This document shows positions 3,209 through 22,123 of a DNA stretch of 64,000 nucleotides, one piece after another. This DNA comes from Macrophomina tecta (Eukaryota > Ascomycota > Dothideomycetes > Botryosphaeriales > Botryosphaeriaceae). The notes under the pieces were generated by a model that was not told where the DNA came from, did not search any database, and saw only the letters and a list, made by a program, of their open reading frames with translations. The translations under genes and the position numbers were made by a program. Each line of letters starts with the position of its first letter. Position 1 is the first letter of the stretch. Location of the stretch: assembly GCA_024180945.1 (NCBI GenBank), contig JAKSGN010000010.1:62001-126000 (forward strand), read 5' to 3'.

Positions 3209-3634
3209 TAACGCGCAACCCGGATGTTTTAATGGTATCTGATCTTTGTTTTGTTGAACTTGGTCGGGACGAATGATGAGTTTTTGGTTATGTGCTGCAG
3301 AAGGATGGAGGGGGCTGTCTTATACTTGACGCAGCCAAGCCACGCTACTGAATCTTGAATACACGAGAATTCCAAAAGATTTCTTTTTTTTTTTTTTTTT
3401 CTCCGATCAAGTGAACGTTTAGCCAATGCAAAGTGATATGGCCAAACGTTAGTAAAGAGCTGCAAAAGGACGAAGGAGGTCCGATGCTTCATTCTGATCT
3501 AACTCTATCCTAACTTTGAAACATTCTCCCCTCAACGTTGAAGTTCTTGTTGCCATTGAATCATCTGATACCAGAAAAACATCCAGCATGGGGAACAGAA
3601 CATGTCTATCATCAGTTTACAGTGGGCCCTGGAA
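3209..3634. other. Intergenic region with poly-T tract
   Basis: Contains a run of about 18 T near 3382-3400. No coding frame or RNA gene is evident. Confidence 0.5.
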
Positions 3635-4156: not shown

Positions 4157-4274
4157 TCTGGGCTTTCTGTAATGGTTAGACTGATGGCGCTTATATGGGT
4201 AACACGCCCGCCATGTGAGGCACTATATGTTATCTATGCCTGATTCATACGTTCTTACATTTTAGCGTGCGGTG

Positions 4275-4984
4275 ACAAAGATACTCTAACTCTTCGAATG
4301 CTTAGAACGTCGAGGTCAAGATTGAACGAGTCACTACACAAGATCAGAAGAGCGGATTCCCCACGGTGCGCGTGCGGACGCGGAGAAGAAACAACCAAGC
4401 ATTTTCTGCTTGAGTGCACTCGCTGGCCTGAACAGCGTACGGAGCTTCAGAGAGCGGTAGGGAAGAGGTTCGGTGATATTTCGTACATGCTAGGTGGATG
4501 GTCAGGAACGAAGCGACCGGACGGAACGTACCTCGACGGACCAGCGGAAACATGGAAGGCTGACATAGCAACGGTCAAGGCATTTGAGATCGCGACAGAA
4601 CGACTGCAGGCAGTCACTGAGTAGTGAAGATAAGAGTGCCACCATAGAGGCTGAGATCTGGCCAGTTGCCACGCCGCTACAGGGACTGGCAGCACTTAGG
4701 AAGATGTCCTGATGATTGGCCAGACGTAGGCTTGGAAAACCCACGGCTCGAGCGAGGAGAGTGTTTCTTTCTACTTCTTCTACCTCAGCGTTCTCTCCGC
4801 TCTTTTCTTCGTATCTCTTCCCTCTCCTTTTTTTTTTTTCTGCTTTTGATAACCTTGATTAGCGTGGTTTTCCCCTGTTTTGTTCCTAAGAGTGAGGGCT
4901 TTGAATGAACCGGGAGTTAATGTAGGTAAACGTCTGCTCAGTGTTAGTTCTTCCCTATGGCCGTGGAGGCCGACGGGGTGTATG

Positions 4985-5016
<32 letters not shown>

Positions 5017-5017
5017 C
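4275..5017 (+). mobile_element. 5'-truncated Tad1-like LINE, 3' end with (TCA)n tail
   Basis: Codons from about 4275 to the stop at 4622-4624 encode the last ~115 residues of a LINE ORF2, homologous to the C-terminus encoded at 32629-32990. Both share CGxxxET(V/T)KHFLLEC, a CCHC-like motif after RNase H, then FMLGGWSGT/YMLGGWSGT. After the stop comes a 3' UTR and then GGCCGACGGGGTGTATGAA followed by about ten TCA/ATC units (4986-5017). The LINE at 32.25-35.04 kb has the same tail. Everything 5' is missing, as expected when target-primed reverse transcription aborts. Confidence 0.8.
4298..4624 (+). pseudogene. LINE ORF2 C-terminal fragment
   Basis: The 108-codon frame holds the terminal CACGRGEETTKHFLLEC zinc-finger-like motif and the GGWSGTKRPDG segment of a Tad1-type ORF2. 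The reverse transcriptase, endonuclease and RNase H parts are absent, so no function is expected. Compared with the copy at 32.6 kb the peptide is diverged, so the two insertions are not recent sisters. Confidence 0.75.
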
Positions 5018-5158
5018 GATACCTGAGGTTCAGAGAGCAACCAAAGCCACATCGTCCCGCGCGATTACTTGACCATTCTCTGTTTTTCTTGTCCACAATA
5101 TAATAGTACGCGCCTGAGATGATAAACCCTGAGTCACAGCAACGTTCAAAAGGCGATA

Positions 5159-5563
5159 CAGTCGCTTGCAAAATCGAGTTCACCCTACCTCGCGAAGAAA
5201 AAGTTGTGAGCACGGACCATTTCTACGCATATTTTTTTTTTAAAGCCGCCATTTTACGGCTACAAATGACTCATCCGTACACTAGCCGCCCAAAGTCCTC
5301 AACACCTCGTTTTCCAGCCATACGTAAGCTATTGATTATAGGTGTTCGGTAGAATTCTAGACCTGAGAAAATGTTGACTTTACAGTAAGCCTGGAGTATC
5401 CCCTAAATTGCGAGGGCATAAAGTTAGCATGTCGTGATAACATCAGCTGTGATACAAAAATACATCCCAATTGATAGGTAAAAATACGCGAGGGAGAGGT
5501 CTGTGTTCAGAATCTTTTTTTTTTTTTTGTGAGGTACGGTGAAGCTGATTTTGCAAGCGACTG
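5159..5563. mobile_element. MITE with CAGT-type terminal repeats
   Basis: The ends are inverted repeats beginning CAGTCGCTTGCAAAATC. The first 17 bases match exactly, and the similarity continues for about 36 bases (TTCACC, TACCTC) with a few mismatches. TA flanks both ends (5157-5158 and 5564-5565). A length of 405 bp, TA target sites and CAGT ends fit a non-autonomous Tc1/mariner-derived element. It has no coding capacity. A T-tract lies just inside the right repeat. Confidence 0.6.
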
Positions 5564-5565
5564 TA

Positions 5566-6472
5566 AGATGACTAGGTGCCATAAAAGTGGTTCTTTAATG
5601 TCCATTTTTTTAATAGTTCTAGACATATTCACTGTCCATTACCAACTATTACGTAGTATGCGCTTATGTAATTTAGCTCACTTTTGGCTCTATGTGCAAA
5701 CCTCCCAGAAGATGCTATTGTACATCATACTATCCGTTTTGTATTCCTTGGTAAATAACCTTTGTGGAACGCGTATTTCGTTTCTTTCCTTTTTTATGCG
5801 CAAATTTTTATGGAGTACTAACTGCTAGGTTCATGTGCTATGAACGAGATGCCGGATCGTTGAAGAGAAACTGCACTCGAAGTTTGCTAACACGTGTAGT
5901 TACACAAATAATTTGTTGGAATATAACTCAATTAATTCGCACTGAATCTAAGTGCGGCGTCGTGCTTTTTTTTATCCAACATAATTACTTCACCACCGTA
6001 AAACCCCTCCCGAGACTATAGTGGTGCTAGAATTCTGAAAGAAAGGTAAAAATTCAAGCAGTTCCTATGTCGCTTTCTCTTCCACACAGATACATCTAGA
6101 AATACCGTCGAAATTTCAGTATGTCAGCTCCAGCTTTTCTCTTCCTTGCTTGTGCTCATCGCTTTTATAAGAAGAAAAATGCGTCTAACCACGACCGCTC
6201 ATATTTTGCGTCATATTTTCTTCCACACGCTGTCAAAATTATGGTAAGCTTGCTTCGGCTTTCTCTCTCCTCTTTAGTCCCAATCACTTTTATTAGATTT
6301 AAAAAGCGCCTAGCCACGGCCGCTAATGTTTGCCATCACCTTTTTTTTTTTTTTTTTTTTTTGAAAGTGGCATAAATTAGACTCATTTCCTTGGAGGTCT
6401 TGCCTATAGGCGTCTGCTTAGTAGAAATGGAAACACCGGTACGTCGTTCTCTTCGTCTCTCGAGCATTCTCA
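5566..6472. other. AT-rich intergenic region with diverged tandem duplication
   Basis: AT-rich with poly-T at 6341-6362. Segments about 6131-6211 and 6258-6340 are diverged copies of one ~80-bp unit; both hold a CTTTTAT...AA(A)AA(T)GCG(T/C)CTA(A/G)CCACG(A/G)CCGCT pattern. No gene is supported. The segment immediately precedes the casein kinase gene and presumably holds its promoter, but no clear TATA box is seen. Confidence 0.4.
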
Positions 6473-7485
6473 ATGCCCGCTCAGGACACGAGAGTAAATA
6501 AGCACCATATCTACAGCCTGCAGAATATAACTCGGCGCGTGTAGGACCTTACCTTCAGCGCGAGATATCGCATAGATAGAAAGATCGGCAGTGGCGCTTT
6601 TGGAGATGTGTATGCCGGTGAGCGTCCAGCTGCCCTTACTAGTACCGGCTGCGGTCATCCTGATGCGATCAAACAGGCACCGACATAAAGACGGGGCAGG
6701 AAGTTGCGATCAAGGTCGAGCGGAAAGATGCGAAACAATCACGGATCGCGTACGAAATCCAGGCATACTCCGCTCTCGCTGGGGGCGTGGGGGTTCCTTC
6801 TGTCCACTGGTACGGCGCCGAGCACAAGAGGATTGCGATGGTCCTGGACCTCCTCGGCCCACACTTGGAGCATATCTTCAACTATTGCAACCGCAAATTC
6901 TCACTCAAGACCGTCCTGTTATTGGCAGACCAGATAATATCTCGCCTCGAGTACATTCATCTCAAGTCATATATCCACAGAGATATCAAGCCGGAGAACA
7001 TTCTTCTGGGAACTGGGAAGCGGAGCGGTCGCATTAGCATTGTCGACTTCGGGCTGGCTAAGAGTTACCACGAGCCAGCTACTGGCCGGCACATTCCATA
7101 CAGCGATAAGAAGAAACTGACTGGCACAGCTCGCTACGCCAGCATCCACTCGCACCTCGGCATTGAGCAGTCGCGCCGTGATGACATGGAGTCTCTGGGG
7201 TACGTCCTGGTATATTTTTCCAAAGGATCTCTCCCGTGGCAAGGGCTTCGGGCCAGCACGAAGGAACAGAAGCGGAGCCTGATTCTGCAAAAGAAGTTGC
7301 TCACTCCCACGGAAGTCCTCTGTCGAGGGCTTCCGGGAGAGTTCGAGACTCTTATGAACTACGTCCGTTCACTCGGCTTTACCGACAGACCAGACTATTG
7401 CTATCTTCGGAGACTACTACACGGCTTGTTTGACCGCAAAGGTTATGAATACGACGGCAGATTTGACTGGGTGCCAAAGAGATAG
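6473..7485 (+). CDS. Casein kinase I-like Ser/Thr kinase (three exons)
   Basis: Exons 6473-6493, 6545-6617 and 6677-7485 join across introns of 51 and 59 bp to give 300 aa. The start is chosen because MPAQDTR leads straight into [19 protein letters not shown]. All kinase landmarks are present: the glycine loop (residues 22-29), VAIK Lys44, HRDIKPEN with catalytic Asp134, DFG at 155-157, and [15 protein letters not shown] in place of the CK1 signature with [17 protein letters not shown] and SLPWQGL follow. CK1 enzymes phosphorylate acidic or primed substrates. The protein ends right after the kinase domain with no regulatory tail, and several normally invariant CK1 positions differ (PENILLG for PDNFLMG). 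It is probably a divergent paralogue rather than the main Hrr25-type enzyme. Confidence 0.85.
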
Positions 7486-8109
7486 ATTGTAAGCTAGAGG
7501 AAGCAGCAGCTCGATTTCACTTGCACGGTTTGAGGGAGCACAACTACAACACCGGTTTTGTCGCAGTTCTGGCCAGCAATTTTCCTGTATCCGGATCCAC
7601 CCTGGAGGCTTCTAGACCACTTTGCTGATTATAGGAAATTCACCGCACGATGACAGCTTAGGCGTCAAAATTCTGTGTCTTTCGTACTATTATTACTGTA
7701 CATCCCTGTTCGTTGCCTTAAGTAGCTTTTAGCCGCATTAGCAGCGGTCTTCTTCCAGAAATTCATTTTCAAACCTGCTATTACCACAACATCTCAAATC
7801 AATTTCCGATTAAAATGCATATAGACAGGGTCACATAGAAAATGGTTAAAATAACTGGGCTCTAATCTTAAGCACACAGTCTCACGAGGGAAGACACGAG
7901 ATGTTGACCATTGGATATTGTTGGAACGAAAAAGCGCGACGCCACGCTCAGAATCTGAGCTGGCAGGCGTTTCACGCCACGCGGGGGAGTTAAACACTTC
8001 CAACCTCCTATAGTTACGGGCCAGCAAACATCGTAAGAGAAGTAAGAAAATATGGTAATGAATCGCTCACCGTAATGTGCGATTTAAAGACCAAAAAAGA
8101 AAAGCCGTT
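7486..8109. other. Intergenic region
   Basis: Between the kinase stop and the pogo left end. No coding frame, RNA or repeat is recognised. Confidence 0.4.
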
Positions 8110-8111
8110 TA

Positions 8112-9938
8112 ACGTGGTTTATCAGTGAGCGACGCATATCAGTAAGCGACGCACTTTTCCTTGGCGCTACCACCCTTCATCTTCCACAGGCGTTTTTTCC
8201 ACAACAAAGCATGCAAGTCCAAACAACCGAAGCACGAATTATCTTAGCCATCGAAGCTATCCGAGCATCCCGAAAACTCAGCCGCCGAGCCGCCGCAAAG
8301 ATCTATAACGTGCCCGAAGCAACGCTCCGCCATAGAATGAATGGCAGAACCGCAAAAACCGATTCCCGGCCCGCTATTCAGAATTTGACCGAGATCGAGG
8401 AAGATGTGATCGTTCAATATATCTTAGACCTAGATTCGCGAGGATTTCCACCCTCGATCGAAGATGTACGCGCAATGGCGGATGACATCCTCGCGTCGGA
8501 AAACTCTGGCCAAACCGCTTCATTAAGCGACGAGAAGAGCTGCGCACGCGTTTCTCTCGCGCCTACGACTTCCAGCGAGCCCTTTGCGAAGATCCCCAGC
8601 TTATAAGCGAATGGTTCAGCCTGTTCTCGAACATGCGGGCCAAATACGGCATCCAGGACTGCGATTTATACAACTTCGACGAGACCGGCTCTATGATGGG
8701 CATGATCTGCTCTTCTATGGTTGTTACCCGTGCCGATCGACGCGGAAAAGGCAAGGCAATTCAGCCTGGCAATCGAGAATGGGCGACCGTGATTACCTGT
8801 GTCAGTAGTGACGGCTTTGACGTTCCCCCGTTTTTGCTGGTTTAAGGCCAGTGCCACCTCGCTAATTGGTACACCGACGGCGGTCTTCCCGATTCCTGGC
8901 CTGTTAAACCGACTTCGAATGGGTGGACCGATAACCACATAGGTCTAGATTGGATTAAGCACTTCGAGAAGTATACTGCGGCGCGTATAAAGGGTGGTTA
9001 CCGGATGCTAGTACTCGATGGGCACGAGAGCCACCAATCGGTCGAATTCGAGGATTTCTGCAAGGCATATAACATTATTACCATCTATTTACCTCCTTAT
9101 TCGTCCTACTTAACCCAGCCACTCGACGTCGGCTTCTTCGGCCCGCTAAAAAGGGCATACGGCAAGGAAATCGGGTTGCTCATTCGGGCCCACATTAACT
9201 ATATTACTAAAGTTGAGTTCTTTTTAGCATTTCGCGAGGCATATAATACAACAATGACCTAAAAAAAACATTGCTGGTGGTTTTTAGGGTGCTGGGCTTA
9301 TTCTATTTGACCCGCAAGCCGTTATTTCTAAGCTAGATGTCAAGTTACGGACGCCAACACCTACGGGCACCCTGAACGCCAACGCCGACCTTTGGGTTCT
9401 CCTAGACGCCATATAACCCGACCGAGGCCATTTCGCAGTCCGAGCTGGTTATATCTCGGATTAATTGTCACTAAGGAAGCTCCCCGACGCCTATTTTTTT
9501 TTCCGCTGTCAAGCAAATGGCAAAGGGTTTGGAGGGAATGGCCGAGGAGAACCGCGCGCTTCGAAAGGCAAATGAGGCAATTAGTAAGCGCCGGAGGGCT
9601 AAAAGAACACGTATCCGTAAAGGAGGTACACTAACTACGGTAGATGCACGAGATATTTTAGCTTAAAGGAATGCTGAGGAACAGGTAGCGCGCGATAGGC
9701 GTGAAAATCGGGATGGCGGTAGAGCGAGGCCGGCGACTATACGGCGATGCGGTACCTGCGGCGAGCCCGGTCATAATGCACGAACGTGCTAGGTCGAAGA
9801 AGTAATGTCTGATGTCTACAGCTCCGACTAATTTCAATTAATTTCAGCGATGTTGGCTGCGCAATTTGGGTGAAGAGTGATAGCGCCAAGGAAAAGTGCG
9901 TCGCTTACTGATATGCGTCGCTCACTGATAAACCACGT
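8112..9938 (+). mobile_element. Fot1/pogo-family DNA transposon with perfect 58-bp TIRs
   Basis: 8112-8169 and 9881-9938 are exact inverted copies of each other, beginning ACGTGGTTTATCAGTGAGCG. TA duplications flank them (8110-8111 and 9939-9940). The length, 1827 bp, fits Fot1/pogo elements. Each TIR holds two tandem, slightly different units of the form TCAGT(G/A)AGCGACGCA, a likely transposase-binding pair. The internal transposase is broken (separate entry). Intact ends with a dead gene mean that any movement would need enzyme from another copy. Confidence 0.9.
8211..9795 (+). pseudogene. Degenerate pogo/Fot1 transposase
   Basis: The N-terminal frame (8211-8606) encodes a psq-type helix-turn-helix (KLSRRAAAKIYNVPEATLRHRM) and the start of a CENP-B-type domain (LDSRGFPPSIEDVRAMADDIL). 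The frame is then lost. The DDE domain resumes in another frame: YNFDETGSMMG (first Asp), a stop at 8843-8845, LVLDGHESHQ (second Asp, about 9003) and YLTQPLDVGFFGPLK (third Asp, about 9115), then a stop at 9260-9262. Beyond that, fragments of the lysine-rich tail and a C-terminal zinc knuckle (CGTCGEPGHNARTC, about 9750-9790) are still readable in shifting frames. At least one frameshift and several stops inactivate it. Confidence 0.85.
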
Positions 9939-10524: not shown

Positions 10525-11990
10525 TTAGAAGTAGAGGTACGGATTTTGAATCCATTCATACTCCGCCATCGCCCTCTCGTACACGCTAACAGCTTCTATC
10601 GCTGGCAGTTTGCGCTTGTCCACGTTCACCTCATCAGTGAGCTTCCAGATGTGCACTTCAGAGAGCTTGTTCCCGTAGAGAAACGTAACGGTTTTGTTAT
10701 GCGGCCCCAGTAGAGCTTTGGCGAACGATCGCGCATTGGATCTGGCTTTTGGTATAGACGTTAGTCCCGGCAGTATGTACGATCTCGCGTGAAATTCTCT
10801 CAACATTGGATGCACTTTTAGATAATCCTGCTAAACGTGAGCGTCCCGAATTTCCTCATCAATCTTCTGGTCCATACCTTCATATACTTACAAAGCTCCT
10901 TGCCCACTCCGTTCAAGAGCACGGGAACACCAAGGTGCTGAAGCCGAGGGAACGCGTTCATGGTGTCGACGACGTCCTGCACGGAGTAGTGATAGGTCGA
11001 TAGGTACGAGTCTCGGTTTTGCCTGCATTCTATGGTAAGGCTCCGCAATGACAGGCGGTGCGGTTTGAGCCAAGCGATTGGTATACTACAGCTACTCTGC
11101 GCGAGGAGAAGCGCTACGTGGGATAATGAGGTATAGTTGGCCAGGTCGGAGAAGAAGGCGCCAAGGTACGGGTGGGGCTCGTACGAGACGAGCTCGAATT
11201 TGCTCAGGCTCCTCTTGGCGCGGGGCGAGAGCAGAAGCCCGTTGCAGACTTGGTGGCAGTACCGGAAGCTGATATGCTCCACTGTCTCCAGCGACTGGCC
11301 CGGCCACTGATCTATGTCTACGTATTCGAGCCTTAGGCACTTCAATGACGGGGCCTGCAGCTGGTCGGGGATGAGCCTGGTTACGGGCATGTTCGGAAAA
11401 TCCCTCCCGACACTGAGACAGGCAGTGTGGAGCGAGCGTGCGTGGACGAATTGAAGCTTCACCCAGCTCGCCTGGTCGAGCGATGCTATATTCCGACACT
11501 CGAAGTCCCTCAACAATGGGAAGCAGACAGACAGCGGCGCTTGACTGGCTTCGATCACGAGGCTCGTCAGGGTGGTCGGGGCGTCGAGAAGGATGTTGAT
11601 CGGCAGGCCTGAAGCCTCTCCACCAAGCCGCCACCGGAAAGATCGCAGGTTAGAGCGAATTTGGGGGTTCTTCAGCAGCAACGCGCCGATAATGAGCAAT
11701 TGTGTGTTTGTTCTCCTTAACCGCGCCTCCCAGACCTCATGCACAAACTCGAAGGTCAAGGCGCGCACGAATGCACACAGTCTCTCAGTGCGCAGCAACT
11801 TTTCTAGTAGTAATGTGGATTTGTATGTCAAGTCTAAGGTGTATGGGTTGATCTGGAAGGTGAGAACTGAGTACAGCTTGGGAGCTGCAAAGTGGTAGAA
11901 CCATTTGTTGAGTCTGTTGACGACAGCGAGCTGGCGGACATCTAGAAAGTCGAAGATATCAAGGAGAATCTCCACTGGGAGGTTTTCCAT
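10525..11990 (-). CDS. F-box protein (two exons)
   Basis: Exon 1 is 11990-10878 and exon 2 is 10827-10525, with a 50-bp intron (donor GTATGG, acceptor CAG; an alternative TAG acceptor 3 bases earlier keeps frame). The protein is 471 aa. Residues 3-40 are an F-box: NLPVEILLDIFDFLDVRQLA followed by VNRLNKWFYHFAAPKLY. F-box proteins dock substrates on SCF ubiquitin ligases through Skp1. The remainder has leucine-rich stretches (TLTSLVIEAS, LKCLRLEYVDI, SLRSLTIECRQ) typical of the irregular substrate-binding repeats of fungal F-box proteins. Exon 2 carries no known motif. The intron rescue is supported because frame 1 would otherwise end at SRII and frame 2 lacks a plausible independent start. 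LTR-like relics flank the gene. Confidence 0.8.
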
Positions 11991-12430
11991 CTTGCCTTGA
12001 CCAGAAGGCTAGGACACGCTTCGCCGCACCGCTGTAGCCGTGGAAATATGCAGGAGAGACGCGTTCGAAGTCGTACAAGCCTAGTGATCGCAATGTCGAA
12101 TCTGAGGATGAAAGAACTACCACCACGATAAATGTTCACTCATATAAAGTACAGCGTGGTGAGTCCTATCTTTGTTGATTAGGCCATTGAATTTCCTCTA
12201 CATGCTGCATTCCCTCCCAAAGCAGTGAACACTTTGCAGCGGTGGTCTATAGCTTTGTAATGGCAATTACAAAACCTAGCAAGATTCATCACTCGGACTG
12301 GACAGTGCGCTTATAATAGGCTCTCTGGCACGCCTTCCTCTACGGGCTAGGTGGGGCATGTTAGAACAGTCGCGTACTTCCGGAACCAGTCGCACGTAAG
12401 ATGCTATTCTTGTGATAACTATCATCAGAG

Positions 12431-14287: not shown

Positions 14288-14729
14288 TGTAACGAGCGGG
14301 CCTCTGCCTCTAAGGATCCAAACACCGAAGAGGGAGAAAACCTGTCGAAGGATTTCCTTGAGTGGGTACAAGAAGAGGGTGAGAGCAAGTCGAACACGTG
14401 ACAAGACTGAGCACTGCGTGCGAAGGCCGTGTTACTAACAATGTGCGAATTGTTATTGAAGTTGACCACGAAGGTCAAAGCTATCTAAAGAGTGTGGTTT
14501 ATATAATAGTGGGAGAGTGTATACAATCTGATAGTTCATGGGTTCATTCTGCCAAGCGGTTGAACGTCTGAACTTCGCGAGTTCAGGAGTTCAGAGTGCC
14601 AAGGCTCTGAACAGTTGAACCGGGAGTCACGTGACTCCTTGCCGGTGGATCTTTCTCGCGGGCGCGTAGGCGCCCCGCTTGTCCTTCTTATCCTTCTTAC
14701 CCAGGTCCTGTGTAGGCTGCGCCGTAACA
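14288..14729 (-). repeat. Gypsy 3' LTR
   Basis: 442 bp, TGTAACG...CGTAACA on the plus strand. It holds the TATA-like TTTATATAA (14498-14506) and, toward the high-coordinate end (U3 of the element), a cluster of palindromes: stems at 14568-14586, 14589-14612 and 14660-14675, and a perfect 14-bp palindrome with a CACGTG E-box at 14624-14637. The TATA motif is near-symmetrical and could serve transcription in either direction, including the antisense gene starting at 14830. Confidence 0.95.
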
Positions 14730-17700
14730 CTATCCCCCCCTTTAAGGATCTTCGGCCCGAAGATTCTCCGTAAAGGCTATAATTCGTCTGCTGCTGTGAT
14801 TCCTCTTTCTCCCGTAAGTTTCCTTCGTCATGGCTGGCGTGAAACGTTCTCGCGACGAGTCGGCTTATCGCGCTGAGTTGTCGACCGCGATCAATTCCTT
14901 TGCTCCGGTCACGCGTGCTTGTTTCGATTGTTCCGCTAACGGGCGTGTCTGTAGGATTGGTCCTCGTTCGTCCCGTTGTGGAGAGTGTGCGGCTCGTGGT
15001 TATACCATGTGTGACGCTCAGAGGGTTTCCGTGTCCACTAGTAAGGATTCGTTTTCTTTGTTCTTTTCCTTGCTGACGTCCTAACAGTGAATCGTTTGCG
15101 TCGCCAACAAGAGCGGATCCGTTCTGAGGAGGAGGCTGCTTATCGTGATTTCCAGGAGGCCTCGGAGGCGTTGGAGAGGTTACAATCTCGCCTTCGCGCT
15201 TCTTCCTCGAAGCTAGTACGCCTTCGGAAACAGCAGAAGTTGCTGGAGGATCGTGGTTTCTCCATTCTTGATCGCGAACTTTCTTCGGAGGATGTCGCGG
15301 CTCTGGAGATGAAGGATCAGAGGCTGTTGGAGCAGCTGGCGGCTGGGGAGCCGTCTGACCCTGAGAATTCCGGGGGTCCGTCCGCGTCAAAACGGCCACG
15401 TCACGAGTCGGTGGATCCTGCTGCGCCGCGGGAGGCTGGGTTTGCCGATTCTGCCGGCGAGCCTGTGGCTGGTGCGTGGTCCCCGCGTTCTCCTGGACCT
15501 GTGGATTCTGTTCGCCGGTCGTCGTCCCTGGTGTGGGATGTTGCGACTCTCGAGGGCCTTCCGTCGTTCTCGTTCGAGGACGGCCTCGTTTCCGCGGGAG
15601 GTCAGGGTTCTGGCGATGGAACTCCGTGACAAGGTCTGAGTGTATGTCGTCCTTTGGCACCCACTGGTTGTCTTCATTCCCGTAACCTTCCCATTTGACG
15701 AGATATTTGAGCTGACGACCGAACCGCTTGCAGTCTAGGATCTTCTCGACTGGGTACTGGTCTTCTTCGGCGTCAGGGTTTTCTGGTATAATTTCTTCCT
15801 GAGTTTCCGGAATGGTGGCGTTTTCTGGTGCTGGCTCGAGCATTGCCACGTGAAAGGTGGAGTTCATCCGTGTGTTAGGCAATTTGAGTCGATACGTGAC
15901 TTCTCCGAGTTTTTCTGCAATTTCGAATGGACCGATTTTCTTGAAATCCAATTTGTCGCTCGGTCGTTTTGATTTGATGTTTTTCGTGAGGAGGTACACT
16001 TTATCCCCCCTTTTAAGGTTCGGTGCCGCCTGGTGCCGTCTGTTGTAGTATTTGGACATCATAATTCGTACATATTCGAGGTCGAGACTGATGGCTTTGT
16101 GCAATCCCCTTAGCTGCTCGGCCTTGAGAACGCCTTTCTGGGCCAATTTTCTGCTTGGGATGGCCTCTCTATACGCGTCTGGTTCAAACCCATAGTTGGC
16201 AAAGAACGGGGATACGTTGGTTGACTCTTGTTTGGCGCTGTTATAGGCGAATTGTGCCATGGGTAGCCATGTGGCCCAGTCATCCTGTGGGTAGTTGATG
16301 TAACAGCGAAGATACTGTTCGAGAGTCCGGTTCATCCGTTCTGTCTGGCCGTCGGTTTGCGCGTGTGCCGTTGTAGAGAGTTTGTTCTTTGCTCCAAGCT
16401 GGCGCATAAGCGTTTGCCAAAATTCTGATCTCATCAGCTTGTCCCTGTCCGAAACCAATACTTCCGGCATTCCGTGATCCGCGAAGATGTATCGGAGAAA
16501 CGTGTGGGCTAGCTGTTCTGCATTCGATGCCTCTAGGTAGGGCAAGAAGTAGGCGTACTTCGTGAGTCTGTCGACAAAGACTAGGATCGAGTCGAACTTG
16601 ACTTCTGTGAGCGGGTCCCTAGACCTTGGTAGCTTTGTGATGAAGTCTAGCGTGACCCATTGCCATGGTCGTTCTGGTACTTCCAGGGGTTGTAAATGTC
16701 CGTACGGAGCGTGTGTCGCGGCTTTGCTCCGGATGCAAAGGTCGCATTGCGAGACTATACGCTGGACCGTCTTTCGTAATCCCGGAAAGTAGAAGTTTTG
16801 CGTGATCCTCTCGGTTGTCCTGTCGATGCCCTGATGTCCATGCGCGGGTGCTACGTGCATGTCTTTAACGAGTGCTTCTCGCAGTCTTGTCGGGACATAG
16901 ATTAACCCTTTGAAGAGAAGCGTTCCTTCTCTATCTCGAGCAACACGCGGGTCGTCCTCAAGCGCTAAAAGTTCCTGCGCGAAGGAGTCCTGAGCGTATG
17001 CTTCTCGGATCTTCTGATGCCACGGGTTTGACTCGATGCGAAGCATTGGGAAAGACTGTCTGGCAAGGGTGAGCGATCCATCGCTTGTCCACTGCAGTAC
17101 TGCAGGTTGCGGCTCGATTCTTCCTTCCATGTAGTCTACCCTTCTGCTGAGCGCGTCAGCGGCGGCGTTATCTACACCTTTTCTGTGTGTGATCTTGAAA
17201 TTGTAGGATGCCAATTCTTGTGACCAGCGAACTTGTCGTCGGTTCAGCTCCTTGGTCGTGGTGAAGCGCGTGAGATTCTGATGGTCACAATGCACTATCA
17301 CCTGTTGGTCGGTTCCTTCTAGGTAGTGTCTCCAGTGCTTGAATGCTGAGACGATAGCCAAGAGCTCCTTGTCATGAGTGTCGTAGTTGAGCTCTGCTGG
17401 GGTGAACTTTCTTGAGTAGAACGCGATCGGATGCCATCTGCCTTCATCGTCAGGCTGGCTGAGACATGCTCCTAGGGCGAATCCTGACGCGTCAGTTTCT
17501 ACTTCGATTGGTTTGTCGGGATCGTATATCCCTAAGACGGGTGCTTCGCAAAACATCCGTTTCAGCGAATCGAAGGCTTGCTGCTGATCGTCTCCCCATT
17601 GGAAGCCATGCTCCTTCTGAGTGAGTCGCGTTAAAGGTTCCGTGACCTTTGAATAGTTCCAGATGAACTTCCTGTAGAAATTCGCGAACCCAAGGAAGGA

Positions 17701-19845
17701 CTGTACTTCCTTGATCGTCTTCGGTACTGGCCATTCTCTGATGGAATCCAGTTTCGAGTCGTCCATACCGACATGTCCGGGGGTGATGACAAAGCCTAAG
17801 AATTCCACTTTCTGGGTATGCCAGAAGCACTTGTCCGGTGCAATAGTGAGATTCTTTGCTTGAAGCGTTTCTAGGACCTTTCTGACATGCTTCTTGTGTT
17901 CCTCAAGGGTGTCTGAAAAGATGAGGATGTCGTCGAGGTAAGCCATGCAGAAGATATCCAAGTATTCGCGCAGCGTGTCATTGACGAGATTCTGAAAGGT
18001 TGCTGGTGCGTTGGTAAGCCCGAATGGCATAACCGTATACTCGTATAGTCCTAGTCTCGTGCGGAAGGCTGTCTTCCACTCTTCCCCTTCCTTGATTCTG
18101 ACCAAGTGGTAACCGTCCCGTAGGTCCAGCTTCGTAAAGTACTTTGCGTTCCCTAACTTGTCCTGGAGCTCGTCGATGCGTGGGAGCGGGTATCGGTTCT
18201 TGATCGTGATGTCGTTAAGTTGTCGGTAGTCGACACAGAGGCGTAACTTGCCATTCTTCTTGGGGACGAAGAGGATCGGATATCCGGCTGATGACGTCGA
18301 TGGCCGAATGTATCCTCGTTCGAGGTTCTTCTCGATGTATTCCTTCAAAGCCTCCATTTCCTTCTTTGATAAGGAGTAGATAGGCTTATAAGCCGGTTTC
18401 GTTCCTGGCTTGAGCGGAATCTCGTGGTCCCACGGTTGGTGCTTTGGCAAGTCTCCCTTTCCTCTTTCTTGGCAAACGGCAACTAAGTCCCAATATTCGT
18501 CGGGTACCGTTTCCATTTCTGGGATTGGAGGTGTTCCTTGTGGTTGCTGCCACATCTCCAAACTACCGTGTTGTCCTCTCTTGATCCTCGCAGGATCGTC
18601 TCCTCCGATGGGAGTTGGACAGTCCTCATCCCTTGGCCTTTCCCGTTGGGCCCTGGCCAGTGCTCTCTGTTGCACCGCCGGTGAGGGTTTGATGTACATG
18701 AGGCAGACCTGTTGTCCTTGGCGTCGCATACGCCTGAATGCCTCTCTTGAGATTGTCTGTACGTCCACGGGAGGTTCGGTGGCTGCCAATTGCTTCCGCG
18801 AAGCCTTACTCTTGGCCTTACGCTTTCTCTGCGTGGTCCTTCGTGACAAATGTTGTACCTGATTTTCGGGAATACTTGACTCGGTAGGGCTTACTCCGCT
18901 TGAGGCGCTGCATTTTACCGAGGAGGCGGCGTCTTGCACGCTGCAGTCCTGGTCCTGTCTTAGGCCTCCCTCAAGGTTGCCGTTGATGTTGCCGTCACTG
19001 GGCCTTACGCCATCGTTTGAGTCTTGCTCTTCTCTTGATGATTCGAGGGTATCGTTTCGCTCGGTAGGGCTTATTCCTGCGATAGGGTTGCATTTTACCA
19101 AGGAGGCTTCGCCTTCTGCGTCGCAGTCCTGGTTCTGACTTACACCACTATCGGAGTCGCCTACACAGCTGCCGCTCTTGGGCCTTACGCTGGCTACTTC
19201 CCGATTCATAGTAGACAAGAGTCGCTGTAGGGTGTTCATTAACCCGTTTTCCATGCGTAAACCGAATTTTCGTAGGAGGTCGTCGATCTCTTCTCGAAAG
19301 ACGATTTCGTCTCCTTCGCTGAAGTCGAAGATAGGTTTCTGTGTTCGGATCCAGGGCATACCTAGAATAATGTCATGCCCGGGGATCCTTTGGACATCGA
19401 GGGAAATCTGCTCCCGATGGTTCTTGATCTGGAGGGTTGCTTCCTCCGTTTCTATCTTTACCCAGCCTTCTCCGTAGACTGAGCTTTTCCCGTCGAATCC
19501 GCTGAGTGGGTATGGCTCTTTCTTCTTCCGGTATAGGATCTTGCATTGTTCCACAAACTCGTTGTGTATAAAGTTTCCGCTTGATCCTGTGTCGATCAGT
19601 ATCCTGATGGGCACTCCGTTGAGTGTTCCTTTCGTTTTGAATTGTTTCCAAAGATTTGGTCCGGTGAGAATTTCCGTATTCGATGTGCGTGATACCATGT
19701 GAAGGGACCTAGACTGTGGCCCCTGGGTCGATCCCAATGCCGTAGGGCCGTCTAGTTTTTTGGCTTCGGATAGCCGTAGACTTCGCTGTGCATGTAGTCT
19801 TTCCATTCGTTGACTTGAAGGTATGCTTGTTTCCAGTTGGTCCAT
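14536..19845 (-). CDS. pol: Gypsy Pol polyprotein (protease, RT, RNase H, integrase, chromodomain)
   Basis: The open frame spans 1769 codons. It is entered by -1 frameshift at 19755-19761, so the ATG at 19845 is not the true start. In order along the frame: aspartic protease ILIDTGSSGNFI (Asp85); reverse transcriptase with YLDDILIFS near residue 634; RNase H with ETDASG near 782; integrase with an HHCC zinc finger (HGHQGIDR...CDLC, near 998) and D-D-E residues in TLDFITKLP, VSDRDKLM and QTERMNRTLEQY; then a chromodomain (EKILDCKRFGRQLKYLVKWEGY...NQWVPK, near 1350-1400) that targets integration to modified chromatin. The last ~370 codons are low-complexity Pro/Gln/Arg/Thr sequence antisense to the plus-strand gene, and the frame runs on through the polypurine tract into the LTR. 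No internal stop disrupts a domain. Confidence 0.93.
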   Translation of the reverse strand: MDQLETSIPSSQRMERLHAQRSLRLSEAKKLDGPTALGSTQGPQSRSLHMVSRTSNTEILTGPNLWKQFKTKGTLNGVPIRILIDTGSSGNFIHNEFVEQCKILYRKKKEPYPLSGFDGKSSVYGEGWVKIETEEATLQIKNHREQISLDVQRIPGHDIILGMPWIRTQKPIFDFSEGDEIVFREEIDDLLRKFGLRMENGLMNTLQRLLSTMNREVASVRPKSGSCVGDSDSGVSQNQDCDAEGEASLVKCNPIAGISPTERNDTLESSREEQDSNDGVRPSDGNINGNLEGGLRQDQDCSVQDAASSVKCSASSGVSPTESSIPENQVQHLSRRTTQRKRKAKSKASRKQLAATEPPVDVQTISREAFRRMRRQGQQVCLMYIKPSPAVQQRALARAQRERPRDEDCPTPIGGDDPARIKRGQHGSLEMWQQPQGTPPIPEMETVPDEYWDLVAVCQERGKGDLPKHQPWDHEIPLKPGTKPAYKPIYSLSKKEMEALKEYIEKNLERGYIRPSTSSAGYPILFVPKKNGKLRLCVDYRQLNDITIKNRYPLPRIDELQDKLGNAKYFTKLDLRDGYHLVRIKEGEEWKTAFRTRLGLYEYTVMPFGLTNAPATFQNLVNDTLREYLDIFCMAYLDDILIFSDTLEEHKKHVRKVLETLQAKNLTIAPDKCFWHTQKVEFLGFVITPGHVGMDDSKLDSIREWPVPKTIKEVQSFLGFANFYRKFIWNYSKVTEPLTRLTQKEHGFQWGDDQQQAFDSLKRMFCEAPVLGIYDPDKPIEVETDASGFALGACLSQPDDEGRWHPIAFYSRKFTPAELNYDTHDKELLAIVSAFKHWRHYLEGTDQQVIVHCDHQNLTRFTTTKELNRRQVRWSQELASYNFKITHRKGVDNAAADALSRRVDYMEGRIEPQPAVLQWTSDGSLTLARQSFPMLRIESNPWHQKIREAYAQDSFAQELLALEDDPRVARDREGTLLFKGLIYVPTRLREALVKDMHVAPAHGHQGIDRTTERITQNFYFPGLRKTVQRIVSQCDLCIRSKAATHAPYGHLQPLEVPERPWQWVTLDFITKLPRSRDPLTEVKFDSILVFVDRLTKYAYFLPYLEASNAEQLAHTFLRYIFADHGMPEVLVSDRDKLMRSEFWQTLMRQLGAKNKLSTTAHAQTDGQTERMNRTLEQYLRCYINYPQDDWATWLPMAQFAYNSAKQESTNVSPFFANYGFEPDAYREAIPSRKLAQKGVLKAEQLRGLHKAISLDLEYVRIMMSKYYNRRHQAAPNLKRGDKVYLLTKNIKSKRPSDKLDFKKIGPFEIAEKLGEVTYRLKLPNTRMNSTFHVAMLEPAPENATIPETQEEIIPENPDAEEDQYPVEKILDCKRFGRQLKYLVKWEGYGNEDNQWVPKDDIHSDLVTEFHRQNPDLPRKRGRPRTRTTEGPRESQHPTPGTTTGEQNPQVQENAGTTHQPQARRQNRQTQPPAAQQDPPTRDVAVLTRTDPRNSQGQTAPQPPAAPTASDPSSPEPRHPPKKVRDQEWRNHDPPATSAVSEGVLASRKKREGEIVTSPTPPRPPGNHDKQPPPQNGSALVGDANDSLLGRQQGKEQRKRILTSGHGNPLSVTHGITTSRTLSTTGRTRTNPTDTPVSGTIETSTRDRSKGIDRGRQLSAISRLVARTFHASHDEGNLREKEESQQQTNYSLYGESSGRRSLKGGIVLRRSLHRTWVRRIRRTSGAPTRPRERSTGKESRDSRFNCSEPWHSELLNSRSSDVQPLGRMNP
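14734..14745 (-). other. Polypurine tract of the gypsy element
   Basis: On the sense strand a purine run TTAAAGGGGGGG ends four bases (ATAG) before the 3' LTR start TGTTACG. This is the expected primer for plus-strand DNA synthesis. The pol frame remains open across it. Confidence 0.75.
14830..15629 (+). CDS. Antisense Zn2Cys6-like, coiled-coil protein carried by the gypsy element
   Basis: Exons 14830-15040 and 15088-15629 join across a 47-bp intron: donor GTAAGG, a TGCTGACGTC branch region, then CTAACAG. The phase-1 junction makes ATG (Met71) and gives 250 aa. Cysteines 31, 34, 41, 50, 53 and 61 follow C-X2-C-X6-C-X8-C-X2-C-X7-C, the spacing of fungal Gal4-type binuclear zinc clusters. Residues about 72-130 are a long charged coiled coil (QERIRSEEEAAYRDFQEASE, then LERLQSRLR and KLVRLRKQQKLLEDRG). 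A KRPRH basic patch and a Ser/Pro/acidic tail follow. This is the zinc-cluster plus dimerisation-helix plan of a transcription factor. The gene lies wholly opposite the pol tail and starts 100 bp inside the 3' LTR boundary. It lacks the usual Lys/Arg between Cys 2 and 3 (SANGRV), so DNA binding is unproven. Confidence 0.75.
19752..19761 (-). promoter_or_regulatory. -1 ribosomal frameshift site (A_AAA_AAC, then gag UAG)
   Basis: On the sense strand the last gag codons are CCA AAA AAC TAG. The heptamer A AAA AAC (plus 19755-19761) is in the correct zero-frame register for a -1 slip. After slipping the ribosome reads AAA AAA CTA GAC GGC, which is exactly the pol frame (KKLDGPTALG). The stop immediately follows the slip site. 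I did not find a clear downstream stem-loop by eye. Confidence 0.8.
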
Positions 19846-21590
19846 TTATTGGCACGCAACTGTTTCCGCTGGTAGACTATATCCCTTCGCACCTGGTATC
19901 GGAAAGTCGGCATGTTGAGTTTCTCGTCCGGTATCCACTGGAGTGTGCGATTCTGGATGGTTGCCGTACCGTGCCGACAAAGAATCCTCGCTAACTCTCG
20001 GAGGGAGTCGTAGTCTGCCTGTTCGCGCGCAGAGGTTCCTTGGTGGTGGCGCTCGACAAGTGTCGTATTCTTAGTTACTGGGAGTTCGTACTTCTTTCCG
20101 TTTTGTTCGATCCGGATTTCCCAAAGAGTATTCTGGCGCCATTCCCAGAGGACTGTCAAGGCAAGGCTTCTTTGATGCGGAATCCAGATGGTCCTGAGGT
20201 TGCCCCATTCGTCATGTAAGTGCTTGCTAATGCCGTATCTTTCGGCAAGAACTTCCAATGAGATGAGGGTATCCCATTTATCGGACAGCATCGGAGGGTC
20301 CCCTGACCGTACGCTATCGCCGCTTTCGGTCGTGCTCTCGTAGAGTTCTCCTGTTTCGCTGTTGACCAGTTCTTCGTCCAAGGGGAAACTGTCGATAATA
20401 TCGTCGGTCTCGATGACTTCCTCGTTCCTAGTCATCATACCGAATTGTCGCGGTTCGTGGGGGTACCATCCCGATATGTCCTTGCTGCTTTGGTGTGTCT
20501 GACAGTCATCGTTGTAGCAGGCTGTCCAGTGCAGCATATCGTGATTGTCTTGACGGGATGCAACCGATGCTTCGCGTTGAGCGCTCGAGGTCTGCTTTCC
20601 ATCCTTCTTGTTGCGAGGGTTCTGCGGGCACTTAGGAGAGAAGTGCTTGTCACTTCCGCAGGTGATGCAGAGTCGATCCTTGTAGCGCTGTTTTTGCTCG
20701 TCCGTCCAGTTCGGGTTAGGTCCTTTGGGCTTCTTGTTTCGACCGTTGTTGTTGCCCTTCTTGGAGTCCTGTCTGTTGGCCGCGTCGAGGGCCATAGCGT
20801 CTCCGCCTTCGAGGGTTGTTCTTTCACGGCGAGGTTTCGAGGTGTTGGCTTGTCGGGAACCCATTTTCCATTCGTACATGCGACCGTCGATCTGAGACGC
20901 AAGGTCTACCATCTTTTGAAAGGTGGCCGGGTATTCGTGGGTAATCATGTTCTTCTTGACTTCTTCCTTCAGGCCTTTGTAGAAGAGGTCGCGGAAAGTC
21001 TCGTCTGACCATTCGAGGTAGGCTGCAAGCTGTTGAAACTTGGTTGCGTAGACAGCTACAGATCCCAATTGTTTAACGGTCATGATATCGTTGGAGGCTT
21101 TGCGGACTTCATCTCGATCGTTGAAAGTGGCCCTAAGGTTGTCTGCGAATCCCGTATAGGTGCCGAAGATTTCCTTGGTCTTTTCTCGTCTCTTCTCGAG
21201 AGAGTGTTCGTTGGCTAGGTGGTCGCGAAGGTATGGTTCCATCCATGCCTCTGCCGTTCCTCTGAGGTAGGTCGATGCGAAGAGTACTTCCTCGGCGTCG
21301 CTGTCGAATTGCGCTTGATTGAACTGGAGGTAGCGTTGCATCTGGAGGAGGAAGGATTGAAGCTTCTTCCTGTCCCCATCGAACTTCTCGGGTGCCGCTA
21401 CTTTAACCTTAGTAGCGCTCCGCTTTGTCGTATGCTCGATCAGTCGAGCGTTCTGAGCCTTCAGCTCCTCGATGAGCTGCAAGAGCTCAGCTCTGGTGGG
21501 CTCCGTTTGCTGTGTGGGCTGAGCTGGCCCCTGGGCACCCTGAACCTGACCCTCGACCGGGTCGACCTCCATCTGAGATCCTGGTGCCAT
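19752..21590 (-). CDS. gag: Gypsy Gag polyprotein
   Basis: 612 aa from ATG at 21590. An N-terminal glutamine/proline-rich stretch with a short coiled coil (ELLQLIEELKAQNARLIEH) leads into the retrotransposon Gag capsid fold (PEKFDGDRKKLQSFLLQMQ, then TYLRGTAEAWMEPYL and FYKGLKEEVKK, residues about 70-230). A CCHC zinc knuckle (CITCGSDKHFSPKC) lies near residues 307-320 and packages RNA. The remaining ~290 residues, including WYPHEPRQFG and an acidic patch, are a C-terminal extension. The frame ends KPKN-TAG. The slippery heptamer A_AAA_AAC sits directly before that stop and sends a fraction of ribosomes into pol. Confidence 0.93.
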   Translation of the reverse strand: MAPGSQMEVDPVEGQVQGAQGPAQPTQQTEPTRAELLQLIEELKAQNARLIEHTTKRSATKVKVAAPEKFDGDRKKLQSFLLQMQRYLQFNQAQFDSDAEEVLFASTYLRGTAEAWMEPYLRDHLANEHSLEKRREKTKEIFGTYTGFADNLRATFNDRDEVRKASNDIMTVKQLGSVAVYATKFQQLAAYLEWSDETFRDLFYKGLKEEVKKNMITHEYPATFQKMVDLASQIDGRMYEWKMGSRQANTSKPRRERTTLEGGDAMALDAANRQDSKKGNNNGRNKKPKGPNPNWTDEQKQRYKDRLCITCGSDKHFSPKCPQNPRNKKDGKQTSSAQREASVASRQDNHDMLHWTACYNDDCQTHQSSKDISGWYPHEPRQFGMMTRNEEVIETDDIIDSFPLDEELVNSETGELYESTTESGDSVRSGDPPMLSDKWDTLISLEVLAERYGISKHLHDEWGNLRTIWIPHQRSLALTVLWEWRQNTLWEIRIEQNGKKYELPVTKNTTLVERHHQGTSAREQADYDSLRELARILCRHGTATIQNRTLQWIPDEKLNMPTFRYQVRRDIVYQRKQLRANKWTNWKQAYLQVNEWKDYMHSEVYGYPKPKN

Positions 21591-21671
21591 TGCTGTTTCC
21601 TAAACTCGTTAGGGGGTGATACCTTACCCGATGAGACTTGATCTCGGAACCTTCCTCTCCTTGCAAGGATG

Positions 21672-21681: not shown

Positions 21682-22123
21682 TGTAACGAGCGGGCCTCTG
21701 CCTCTAAGGATCCAAACACCGAAGAGGGAGAAAACCTGTCGAAGGATTTCCTTGAGTGGGTACAAGAAGAGGGTGAGAGCAAGTCGAACACGTGACAAGA
21801 CTGAGCACTGCGTGCGAAGGCCGTGTTACTAACAATGTGCGAATTGTTATTGAAGTTGACCACGAAGGTCAAAGCTATCTAAAGAGTGTGGTTTATATAA
21901 TAGTGGGAGAGTGTATACAATCTGATAGTTCATGGGTTCATTCTGCCAAGCGGTTGAACGTCTGAACTTCGCGAGTTCAGGAGTTCAGAGTGCCAAGGCT
22001 CTGAACAGTTGAACCGGGAGTCACGTGACTCCTTGCCGGTGGATCTTTCTCGCGGGCGCGTAGGCGCCCCGCTTGTCCTTCTTATCCTTCTTACCCAGGT
22101 CCTGTGTAGGCTGCGCCGTAACA
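21682..22123 (-). repeat. Gypsy 5' LTR
   Basis: Appears base-for-base the same as the LTR at 14288-14729. As the 5' LTR it should drive gag-pol: TTATATAA (plus 21893-21900) would place the RNA start near plus 21863-21870. Its outer flank repeats CCGCC. Confidence 0.95.
21893..21900 (-). promoter_or_regulatory. TATA box of the gypsy 5' LTR
   Basis: TTATATAA on the element's sense strand, followed about 25-30 bases later by a GACCTTCGTGGTCAAC start region. It is the only good TATA match in the LTR. An equivalent copy sits in the other LTR at 14499-14506. Confidence 0.55.

Follow-up and report, generated by a model that had tools for sequence, protein, structure and literature searches.

The window, by which we mean the whole stretch of DNA that was analysed (64,000 nucleotides), carries on its minus strand an intact gypsy element of Macrophomina tecta (contig JAKSGN010000010.1) that occurs in 13 copies. 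Pfam domain order and the identical LTRs place it among the Ty3/gypsy chromoviruses, with gag, the order protease, reverse transcriptase, RNase H and integrase, and a C-terminal chromodomain; the integrase core itself scored below its Pfam cut-off and the flanking integrase domains above theirs. A 5-bp duplication, CCGCC, flanks the element. Opposite the pol tail lies a spliced plus-strand gene (14830-15629, stop codon at 15627-15629) with a product of 250 aa. The features are as follows.

14288..14729, minus strand: 3' LTR
14500..14505, minus strand: sense LTR promoter, TATA-like box (3' LTR copy)
14530..15369, no strand: exchangeable cassette of upstream U3, antisense exon 1 and coil (identity scan, 40-bp blocks)
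14534..14620, no strand: U3 array, two forward-forward-reverse-reverse modules that together hold eight GTTCA/TGAAC half-sites
14536..19845, minus strand: pol ORF (protease, RT, RNase H, integrase, chromodomain)
14730..14744, minus strand: polypurine tract, kept in 8 aligned families
14748..14764, no strand: perfect palindrome of 17 bp, ATCTTCGG-C-CCGAAGAT, with the polypurine tract on one side and the antisense ATG on the other
14778..14783, plus strand: TATA-like box, putative antisense promoter
14830..15040, plus strand: exon 1, from the ATG at 14830, with basic N-terminus and six-cysteine cluster
14920..15012, plus strand: the cluster, C-X2-C-X6-C-X8-C-X2-C-X7-C, residues 31-61
15041..15087, plus strand: 47-bp phase-1 intron, GTAAGG...CTGAC...CTAACAG
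15088..15629, plus strand: exon 2, with coiled coil, acidic/NLS-like linker (KRPRH) and aromatic-acidic C-terminal tail
15093..15341, plus strand: predicted long helix or coiled coil (single-sequence AlphaFold2 and heptad test)
19752..21599, minus strand: gag ORF
21682..22123, minus strand: 5' LTR, identical in sequence to the 3' LTR

The first-pass annotation had claimed an ATG, a 47-bp intron and a 250-aa product opposite the pol tail, and the coordinates were all borne out. The cysteine spacing it gave (X2, X6, X8, X2, X7) was also found, but its description as exactly that of Gal4 was too strong, as the spacing merely lies inside the Gal4-type range; the middle loop of Gal4 itself is X6. 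The long coiled coil expected after the cluster appeared in the window protein as a confident predicted helix, with helices at exon 2 residues 2-54 and 66-84, pLDDT blocks of 92-98 across exon 2 residues 1-50 and a heptad periodicity of P = 0.0005, all pLDDT values being from single-sequence AlphaFold2; the exon 1 model was poor (pLDDT 52). We compared nine families in the genome (A, which is that of the window, and B, C, D, E, G, H, I and K). Heptad periodicity reached P < 0.05 in five of them (A, B, C, I, K) and was not significant in D, E, G and H. The C-terminal aromatic-acidic tail overlaps the pol segment RKRGRPR, and codon-position counts reveal no separate antisense constraint on it. 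A C-terminal activation domain was considered and rejected, the likeness being resemblance only and confounded by the overlapping pol.

The Zn2Cys6 pattern, C-X2-C-X6-C-X5-12-C-X2-C-X6-8-C, is matched by six of the nine families (A, B, C, D, E and K, the last with C-X2-C-X6-C-X8-C-X2-C-X6-C), and the first loop is 11 residues long in G and in H and 15 in I. Searches with Pfam PF00172 (Zn_clus), in which HMMER filters remove most matches above E 0.1, gave no match for A, B, D, E, G, H or I (C was not submitted), and K scored 12.5 bits as a whole and 16.7 bits for a trimmed piece, matched over half of the cluster, all below the gathering score of 21. Against the PDB, 6 of 20 matches of K were Gal4 and Hap1-type chains (E 0.27 to 1.9), with alignments that span cluster, linker and coil; an unrelated protein ranked first (E 0.12). 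The exon 1 profile search of the PDB yielded no Gal4-type chain, and NCBIfam gave nothing for A and, for K, matches that were all far below the cut-offs. The proposed Zn2Cys6/coiled-coil plan can be kept for its regulator layout (basic N-terminus, six-cysteine cluster, coil) and not for formal membership, which falls below the Pfam cut-off. The order of cluster, linker and coiled coil is shared with the fungal Zn2Cys6 regulators Gal4 and Hap1, to which K is weakly matched in sequence, whereas the antisense protein is element-borne, remains below the Pfam cut-off and has a longer first loop in G, H and I. Many Zn2Cys6 regulators have a large middle region, absent from the short antisense protein. 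The recognition segment of the window family lacks the usual basic residues.

The six cysteines, the phase-1 intron and the predicted coil are kept in all nine families. These were chosen for intact frames, so that frame intactness itself is no test. All six cysteine columns are invariant across eight aligned families, and family C, outside the alignment, has them too. The intron lies at the same alignment column and phase in 8/8 families and is in phase 1 in K as well, with a branch-like motif 13-18 bases from its 3' end in 9/9, loosest in G (TTGAC). The first-pass annotation had named loss of the frame or splice sites in relatives, or cysteines preserved only as far as pol requires, as grounds for abandoning the gene; frame and splice sites are both conserved, and the cysteines are conserved beyond what pol constrains, the pol register over exon 1 differing among families. 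The synonymous/non-synonymous comparison of the plus frame that it suggested gave exon 1 omega values from 0.04 (B-C) to 0.58 (B-G) in the 11 pairs where it could be measured, and dS was saturated in two further pairs (A-E, C-E). In B-C the exon 1 changes number 3, 1 and 18 at codon positions 1, 2 and 3; for B-C plus G-H, the antisense third position takes 56 of 100 exon 1 substitutions (P = 2.7e-6), and coil substitutions likewise follow the antisense codon (P = 1.7e-6). Exon 2 overall is under weak constraint in several pairs (omega 0.21-0.89), with purifying selection on the coil and without demonstrated selection on the linker and C-terminus. Among at least 150 chromodomain matches scored, 31 were stop-free and the antisense gene stood beside 29 of these 31, a count made by cross-reading that does not extend to degraded copies; it is present in 13 copies of the window family. 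No relatives were confirmed in viral contigs. The locus has the marks of an antisense additional ORF of LTR retrotransposons: its ORF is conserved, faces gag-pol on the opposite strand close to the 3' LTR and occurs in most of the copies counted. The gene is confirmed as real, selectively maintained, spliced and protein-coding.

In the window element the pol frame runs without a stop beneath the antisense gene and on into the 3' LTR. The same holds beneath the gene in eight of the nine families, with 0 stops where 31 are expected; the ninth is a pol fragment with one stop there. The identity of the pol tail is only 20-48% in five pairs, compared to 71-99% for the core from RT to chromodomain, and over exon 2 the pol register evolves with a dN/dS of 0.8-1.4 (13 pairs). 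Three different pol registers run over exon 1 among the families, and antisense exon 1 is nonetheless conserved. One frame is selected for its sequence, and the opposite frame apparently only for the absence of stops. Such coding on both strands is unusual in itself.

Between the LTR and the gene, the order of polypurine tract, palindrome, TATA and ATG is conserved. The palindrome has 165 exact genomic sites, compared to 0 for a reversed-pattern control, and TATA[AT] is found in six of eight families 12-14 bp past it and 51-59 bp ahead of the ATG. Since the palindrome has no CpA or TpG and cannot be hit by RIP, its conservation in degraded copies is no proof of selection. We argue its conservation from the intact families and from K, which retains the inverted repeat despite changes in both arms. 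An RNA hairpin may still account for it but gains no support from folding, in which shuffled versions of the leader do as well (z 0.23). The core of the palindrome is common to all cassettes and is therefore no fit for a cassette-specific protein.

The cassette is about 840 bp long, with its left edge at the block border 14529/14530 and its right edge near 15370, and is interrupted by a conserved island at 14690-14769. Among the A, B/C and E types the distal LTR is 95-98% identical (150 bp) and the pol core 95-99%; the same types have 24-63% identity over most U3, exon 1 and coil blocks. Fast protein evolution was rejected as the cause, because synonymous sites have diverged just as far (dS of 1.58 for exon 1 in A-B, versus 99 changes at third positions among 868 codons of the pol core), which indicates that the cassette was replaced. 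The GTTCA array of the window was reached by 0/300 dinucleotide shuffles. In 200 bp of U3 we counted eight GTTCA in A, seven GAGCC in E and five TCAGT in each of B and C; the LTRs of B, C and E contain no GTTCA, the TCAGT enrichment is weak (P of 0.06 and 0.07 in B and C), GAGCC is fairly frequent in other places too (the antisense genes of A, B and C have 3-5 copies), and no clear U3 array was found in G, H and I. In a dyad test on 4-mers with spacing of 0-14, shuffles reached the top count in 0/300 cases for A and 1/300 for E, and the same statistic was 0.12 for B and C and 0.06-0.11 for G, H and I. When RIP-type transitions are allowed, A-like relatives keep the paired half-sites (4/4 in L011-L014, 3/4 in L009); in L011-L014 the same stretch of about 245 bp has 21-22 transversions and 19 gap columns. 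That the U3 arrays change with the gene in three cassette types is indirect evidence that the gene may go with the LTR promoter.

Classical CGG-Nn-CCG operators in the LTRs were not taken as sites, according to their observed and expected counts: 0 (1.3) in A, 0 (1.6) in B, 1 (1.6) in E, 6 (5.2) in G, 10 (4.8) in H and 7 (5.0) in I, with C not counted. Several CGG-N9-CCG pairs are common to G, H and I.

We consider it probable on balance that the gene encodes an exchangeable, element-borne regulator with its own operators, which would most likely act on its own U3. Transcription may start from a small promoter of its own between the polypurine tract and the ATG and be followed by one splice. 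The product would be a nuclear-type regulator with a basic N-terminus, Zn2Cys6-like cluster, dimerising coil and acidic tail, and would bind the half-site array that accompanies its gene in the U3 of its own LTRs; we infer its expression, its zinc and DNA binding and the array as its target. In the 5' LTR the array would govern transcription of gag-pol; its copy in the 3' LTR, between sense and antisense TATA, could control expression of the gene itself. Gene and upstream U3 would move as one cassette among elements with nearly identical enzymes.

Lambdoid phages exchange a regulator gene and its operators as one cassette between otherwise near-identical genomes. The likeness is an analogy only. 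As the diversification of the cassettes resembles an immunity region, we lean slightly towards a repressor or self-limiting role. We regard it as possible, although doubtful, that the cassettes are immunity-like, with residents controlling only their own type, and that pol is kept stop-free, perhaps against nonsense-mediated decay: a pol frame open through gene, intron and leader into U3 would leave the genomic RNA without a long untranslated tail. On this reading the same 800 bp is read on both strands, and pol is kept open there even though its sequence can drift.

The antisense protein might instead serve the replication cycle, binding Gag, integrase or chromatin by way of its cluster and coil so as to limit copy number or steer integration, which we think rather unlikely. 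As a classical reader of DNA the cluster is a poor candidate, the part of pol that the gene overlaps comes directly after the chromodomain, and gag varies between some types (57% identity in A-E although the pol core is 98% identical). However, A and B share gag (97%) and pol core (98%), have unlike antisense proteins (43% and 39%) and differ in U3 as well, which makes a variable partner more likely in U3, and the U3 arrays match cassette type. With a still smaller chance, the cassette was swapped for promoter diversity, as an escape from host silencing or into new expression niches, and the gene was carried along with a separate function. U3 adjoins the gene and is a natural switch point of reverse transcription, and first-strand transfer at R followed by a single template switch would carry both along with no functional tie between them; the array could bind a host factor; and for the crapaud element of Podospora an abstract describes variation that is limited to the 5' half of each LTR. 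Purifying selection within a type (B-C exon 1) nevertheless shows that the protein matters, without pointing to its target. Action of the antisense transcript as RNA (dsRNA, silencing or interference with gag-pol) with an incidental protein is raised for plant antisense ORFs in a review, and such a transcript must be complementary to the pol tail along its full length, but codon-level purifying selection, invariant cysteines and an in-phase intron make it very improbable. There is practically no chance that the ORF arose merely as a side effect of the pol coding opposite it: it lies entirely over one open pol frame, yet exon 1 is conserved over an unconserved pol tail in three registers, and the codon-position counts rule out this origin as well as a chance ORF.

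HBZ of the animal retrovirus HTLV-1 is a spliced coiled-coil regulator of the bZIP and not the zinc-cluster type. The gene described here is similarly antisense and spliced, with a putative promoter at the 3' LTR and a regulator of coiled-coil dimer type, and no homology to HBZ is claimed. Published work describes HBZ as nuclear, with an antisense promoter in the 3' LTR. The initial statement that fungal gypsy elements have no described equivalent is not supported: several papers refer to brtn, an extra antisense gene that the Boty-like gypsy elements of Botrytis cinerea carry (Zhao et al. 2011, Virology 417:248). A review adds Sclerotinia to Botrytis for this gene, a Boty-like pol is described as also having a chromodomain, and in Monilinia one transcript is reported to match BRTN and a truncated Pol. 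As cited, brtn is likewise an antisense gene in a fungal gypsy element, and the two may well belong to the same gene family. Antisense aORFs are also described for the plant gypsy elements Retand (TRP28), Grande (gene23) and RIRE2; TRP28 is predicted to bind DNA and gene23 to be nuclear, and a regulatory role is proposed there and unproven. Unlike the plant ORFs, the Macrophomina gene overlaps pol itself, encodes a cluster of six cysteines and is interrupted by a 47-bp intron.

Two papers on plant elements state that it is still an open question what antisense genes do in LTR retrotransposons. The elements of this genome, nearly identical except in regulator and U3 array, constitute a natural experiment in which each of three cassette types comes with a concrete predicted half-site, and make self-specific control of the LTR by an antisense protein directly testable.

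The element hosting the antisense gene is an intact minus-strand Ty3/gypsy chromovirus with a 5-bp duplication (CCGCC) on both sides. Its features in the window are as follows.

14288-14729 and 21682-22123, minus-strand element: LTRs, identical to each other
19752-21599, minus: gag, with the expected domains
14536-19845, minus: pol, with the expected domains, chromodomain included
14830-15629, plus: antisense gene opposite the pol tail (ATG at 14830, intron of 47 bp at 15041-15087, stop at 15627-15629)

After splicing, the gene encodes a protein of 250 residues, and the antisense stop coincides with the end of the pol chromodomain, whose match ends at pol residue 1411 (position 15613). Directly after the chromodomain (under 15560-15629) pol reads RKRGRPR, an AT-hook-like motif that overlaps the antisense C-terminus. 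The genome searched (54.1 Mb in 37 contigs) contains, with the window's own, 13 copies that match the stretch over its full length at 100% (rounded), and numerous older copies carrying transitions typical of repeat-induced point mutation. Elsewhere in the window, judged by eye, plus-strand ORFs at 8088-9262 resemble a Fot/pogo-type transposase with an N-terminal helix-turn-helix, and the start of a 396-aa minus-strand ORF at 10818-12008 resembles an F-box protein.

Six-frame searches of the genome gave 68 matches with the window's exon 1 (E <= 0.1) and 57 when exon 1 came from a second family. With exon 2 as query, a third family gave 139 matches and a fourth 45 (the latter at E <= 1e-5). From these related families of one genome we assembled nine complete spliced frames, chosen for being intact (A, the window's own, and B, C, D, E, G, H, I and K). 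Family F, which has lost the cysteines and lacks the ATG at its place, and the degraded family J were excluded from the counts. The spliced gene with six cysteines proposed in the first-pass annotation was recovered in all nine: the intron lies in the same alignment column and in phase 1 in 8/8 aligned families, is likewise phase 1 in K, measures 44-49 bp, and has a branch-like motif 13-18 bases from its 3' end in 9/9 families (loosest in G). The donor of family D is irregular (GTCTGT). The six cysteines are invariant in the alignment of 8 sequences, and family C, outside that alignment, also has all six; the spacing first read in the window protein is the same in families A to D.

Cysteine spacing in the antisense proteins of the nine families
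A, B, C, D: X2-X6-X8-X2-X7
E: X2-X6-X9-X2-X7
K: X2-X6-X8-X2-X6
G: X2-X11-X8-X2-X7
H: X2-X11-X9-X2-X7
I: X2-X15-X8-X2-X7

The family D locus (L065) carries a lone antisense gene (exons 2138-2345 and 2392-3002 in reversed orientation, open frame of 273 residues) with an LTR end, the palindrome described below and almost no pol; it is either a decaying fragment or a solo gene. Among the matches listed, two stop-free chromodomain matches at 50-55% identity (G000:C12:130412-130582 and G000:C10:553422-553589) have no adjacent antisense-gene match, and are either other elements or host proteins.

Codons were compared in 13 family pairs, each exon separately: exon 1 gave omega of 0.04-0.58 in the 11 measurable pairs, dS being saturated in A-E and C-E. 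B-C has the lowest value, its changes by antisense codon position, first to third, numbering 3, 1 and 18; the ten further pairs range over 0.16-0.58. Exon 2 as a whole is less constrained (0.21-0.89). Pooling B-C and G-H, changes at positions 1, 2 and 3 number 23, 21 and 56 in the cluster exon (P 2.7e-6) and 33, 24 and 67 in the coil (P 1.7e-6), and this third-position bias is absent from the linker (21, 26, 22) and the C-terminus (1, 8, 5). Since the antisense third position in exon 2 lies opposite the pol second position, pol constraint is not the cause of the coil bias. The pol register across exon 2 has dN/dS of 0.8-1.4 (13 pairs), and in five pairs the pol tail is 20-48% identical compared to 71-99% for the core from RT to chromodomain. 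The codon bias together with the drifting pol tail shows that selection acts on cluster and coil at the level of the antisense protein; the apparent conservation of the antisense C-terminal tail may come from pol. We regard it as nearly certain that the antisense gene is real and under selection.

The pol frame beneath the gene is nevertheless stop-free in 8/9 families, across both exons, intron, leader and polypurine tract into the 3' LTR (K only to the end of the fetched stretch, C 5'-truncated, H with a frame change far upstream). That change in H (L060) appears as two overlapping open pol frames, 4774-7386 and 2093-5140. Within the gene, the eight families have 0 stops in the pol frame compared to 31.0 expected with antisense proteins and codons kept as they are, a count that common ancestry keeps from being eight independent trials. 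Outside that sum stands family D, a fragment that contains little pol, with 1 stop compared to 3.9 expected. The pol register over exon 1 takes three values (0 in A, E and K; 1 in I; 2 in B, C, G and H), which means that pol stayed open, or became open again, in more than one frame. We infer from these sequences selection against stops in the pol tail rather than for a peptide; one conceivable reason would be that the transcript thereby avoids the nonsense-mediated decay to which a long tail would expose it.

As for the protein itself, the six invariant cysteines and, in the window protein, the predicted helix behind them resemble the Zn2Cys6 plan originally suggested, with a longer first loop in G, H and I. 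Pfam Zn_clus reported no match for the A, B, D, E, G, H and I proteins, and for K gave weak matches that miss the cut-off (E 0.17 over the full protein, 0.0079 over a piece of 42 residues). Against PDB, the 20 matches of K include Gal4 (3coq, 1d66, 7uik) and Hap1-type (1hwt, 1qp9, 2hap) chains at E 0.27-1.9, aligned over cluster, linker and coil and ranked behind MazG (E 0.12). An exon 1 profile search of PDB gave no Gal4-type chain. In structure prediction the exon 1 model is poor and exon 2 contains a confident helix. The protein is Zn2Cys6-like and is not filed as a Zn2Cys6 member.

Exon 1 and the coil also belong, with the upstream U3, to an exchangeable cassette of ~840 bp. The pol cores of A, B and E are 98-99% identical, and gag is 97% identical in A-B and 57% in A-E and B-E; exon 1 protein identity is 43% in A-B, 26% in A-E and 31% in B-E. 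In a 40-bp block scan the left edge lies within the LTR, 25 bp upstream of the sense TATA and at the block border 14529/14530, where identity of 88-97% gives way to 30-52%; the right edge lies near 15370, behind the coil, and an island at 14690-14769 (LTR end, polypurine tract, palindrome) is conserved inside. B and C have one cassette type (78-98% per block, except two blocks at 63-64%), with pol cores 95% identical, slightly below A-B (98%). Synonymous sites in the cassette have diverged strongly as well, so the cassette was exchanged and is not fast-evolving. First-strand transfer at R and template switching are established retroelement biology, and here such a transfer and then a single template switch close to the chromodomain would suffice as the route. 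The contrast is milder among G, H and I, with identities of 89-91% for the pol core, 60-67% for exon 1 and 88-100% for gag.

In the leader, past the polypurine tract, a 17-bp palindrome with core CTTCGG-C-CCGAAG begins 17-18 bp away from the edge of the LTR. Its exact pattern ATCTTCGGNCCGAAGAT has 165 genomic sites and the reversed control 0. By cross-reading of match lists, 34 of the 50 sites listed adjoin a correctly oriented match to the antisense gene; nine of the other 16 were fetched, eight having gene remnants and the ninth (L070) being cut on the wrong side. In family K (TCCTTCGGCCCGAAGGA) both arms are altered and the inverted repeat is retained. TATA[AT] follows 12-14 bp after the palindrome, 51-59 bp before the ATG, in 6/8 families, with CTATTT in its place in B and C. 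A donor-like GTA(A/G) (GTAAGT, GTAGGT, GTAAAT, GTAAGC) stands 11-16 bp before the ATG in 7/8 families (14814-14819 in the window; GTGACT in K) and, if used, could splice out exon 1.

The U3 was searched over 200 bp and compared with 300 shuffles. In family A, eight GTTCA/TGAAC sites form two modules with 8-bp steps, the order in each being forward-forward-reverse-reverse; eight copies of any 5-mer were reached by 0/300 shuffles. Family E carries GAGCC/GGCTC seven times, and four of these sites follow that order in 10-bp steps (0/300), while B and C have five TCAGT/ACTGA, four being forward-forward-reverse-reverse in 18-bp steps (P 0.06 and 0.07). The LTRs of B, C and E lack GTTCA. GAGCC does not occur in the B and C LTRs and occurs once in that of A; one TCAGT in the shared distal LTR is common to all four. 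Background counts in the antisense genes of A, B, C and E are 4, 5, 3, 1 for GAGCC, 0, 1, 1, 0 for GTTCA and 0, 0, 1, 3 for TCAGT. Twenty relatives were taken (L009-L028, some being copies of one family), and 14 were examined after dropping 6 without an exact palindrome. With RIP-type transitions permitted, A-type pairs are present in L009 and L011-L014, all with A-like antisense genes, and in 0/9 others; E-type pairs are limited to the two E copies. The B/C-type relatives, six in all, have six TCAGT-type sites, the D copy has three and L014 one. Over ~245 bp L011-L014 differ from A by 21-22 transversions and 19 gap columns, and the four pairs survive. G, H and I have no clear array (5- and 6-mer P 0.10-0.62, dyads 0.06-0.11). 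Their LTRs carry CGG-N9-CCG pairs (4, 5 and 3 in L059, L060 and L061), some at matching places, possibly operators of another type. Going by these patterns, the best reading is that the antisense protein is probably a regulator acting on its own U3.

The initial view that fungal gypsy elements have no described equivalent is not supported, since brtn, as titles and citations present it, is an antisense gene of Boty-like elements and a fungal precedent; a Monilinia transcript is reported to resemble truncated Pol and BRTN. Titles and abstract openings in the literature gave no description of a zinc-cluster antisense gene in gypsy elements, and the word antisense is absent from the main texts of two fungal surveys and the crapaud paper. 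The window's antisense gene may belong to the brtn family, described here by its domains, its selection and the way its cassette behaves.
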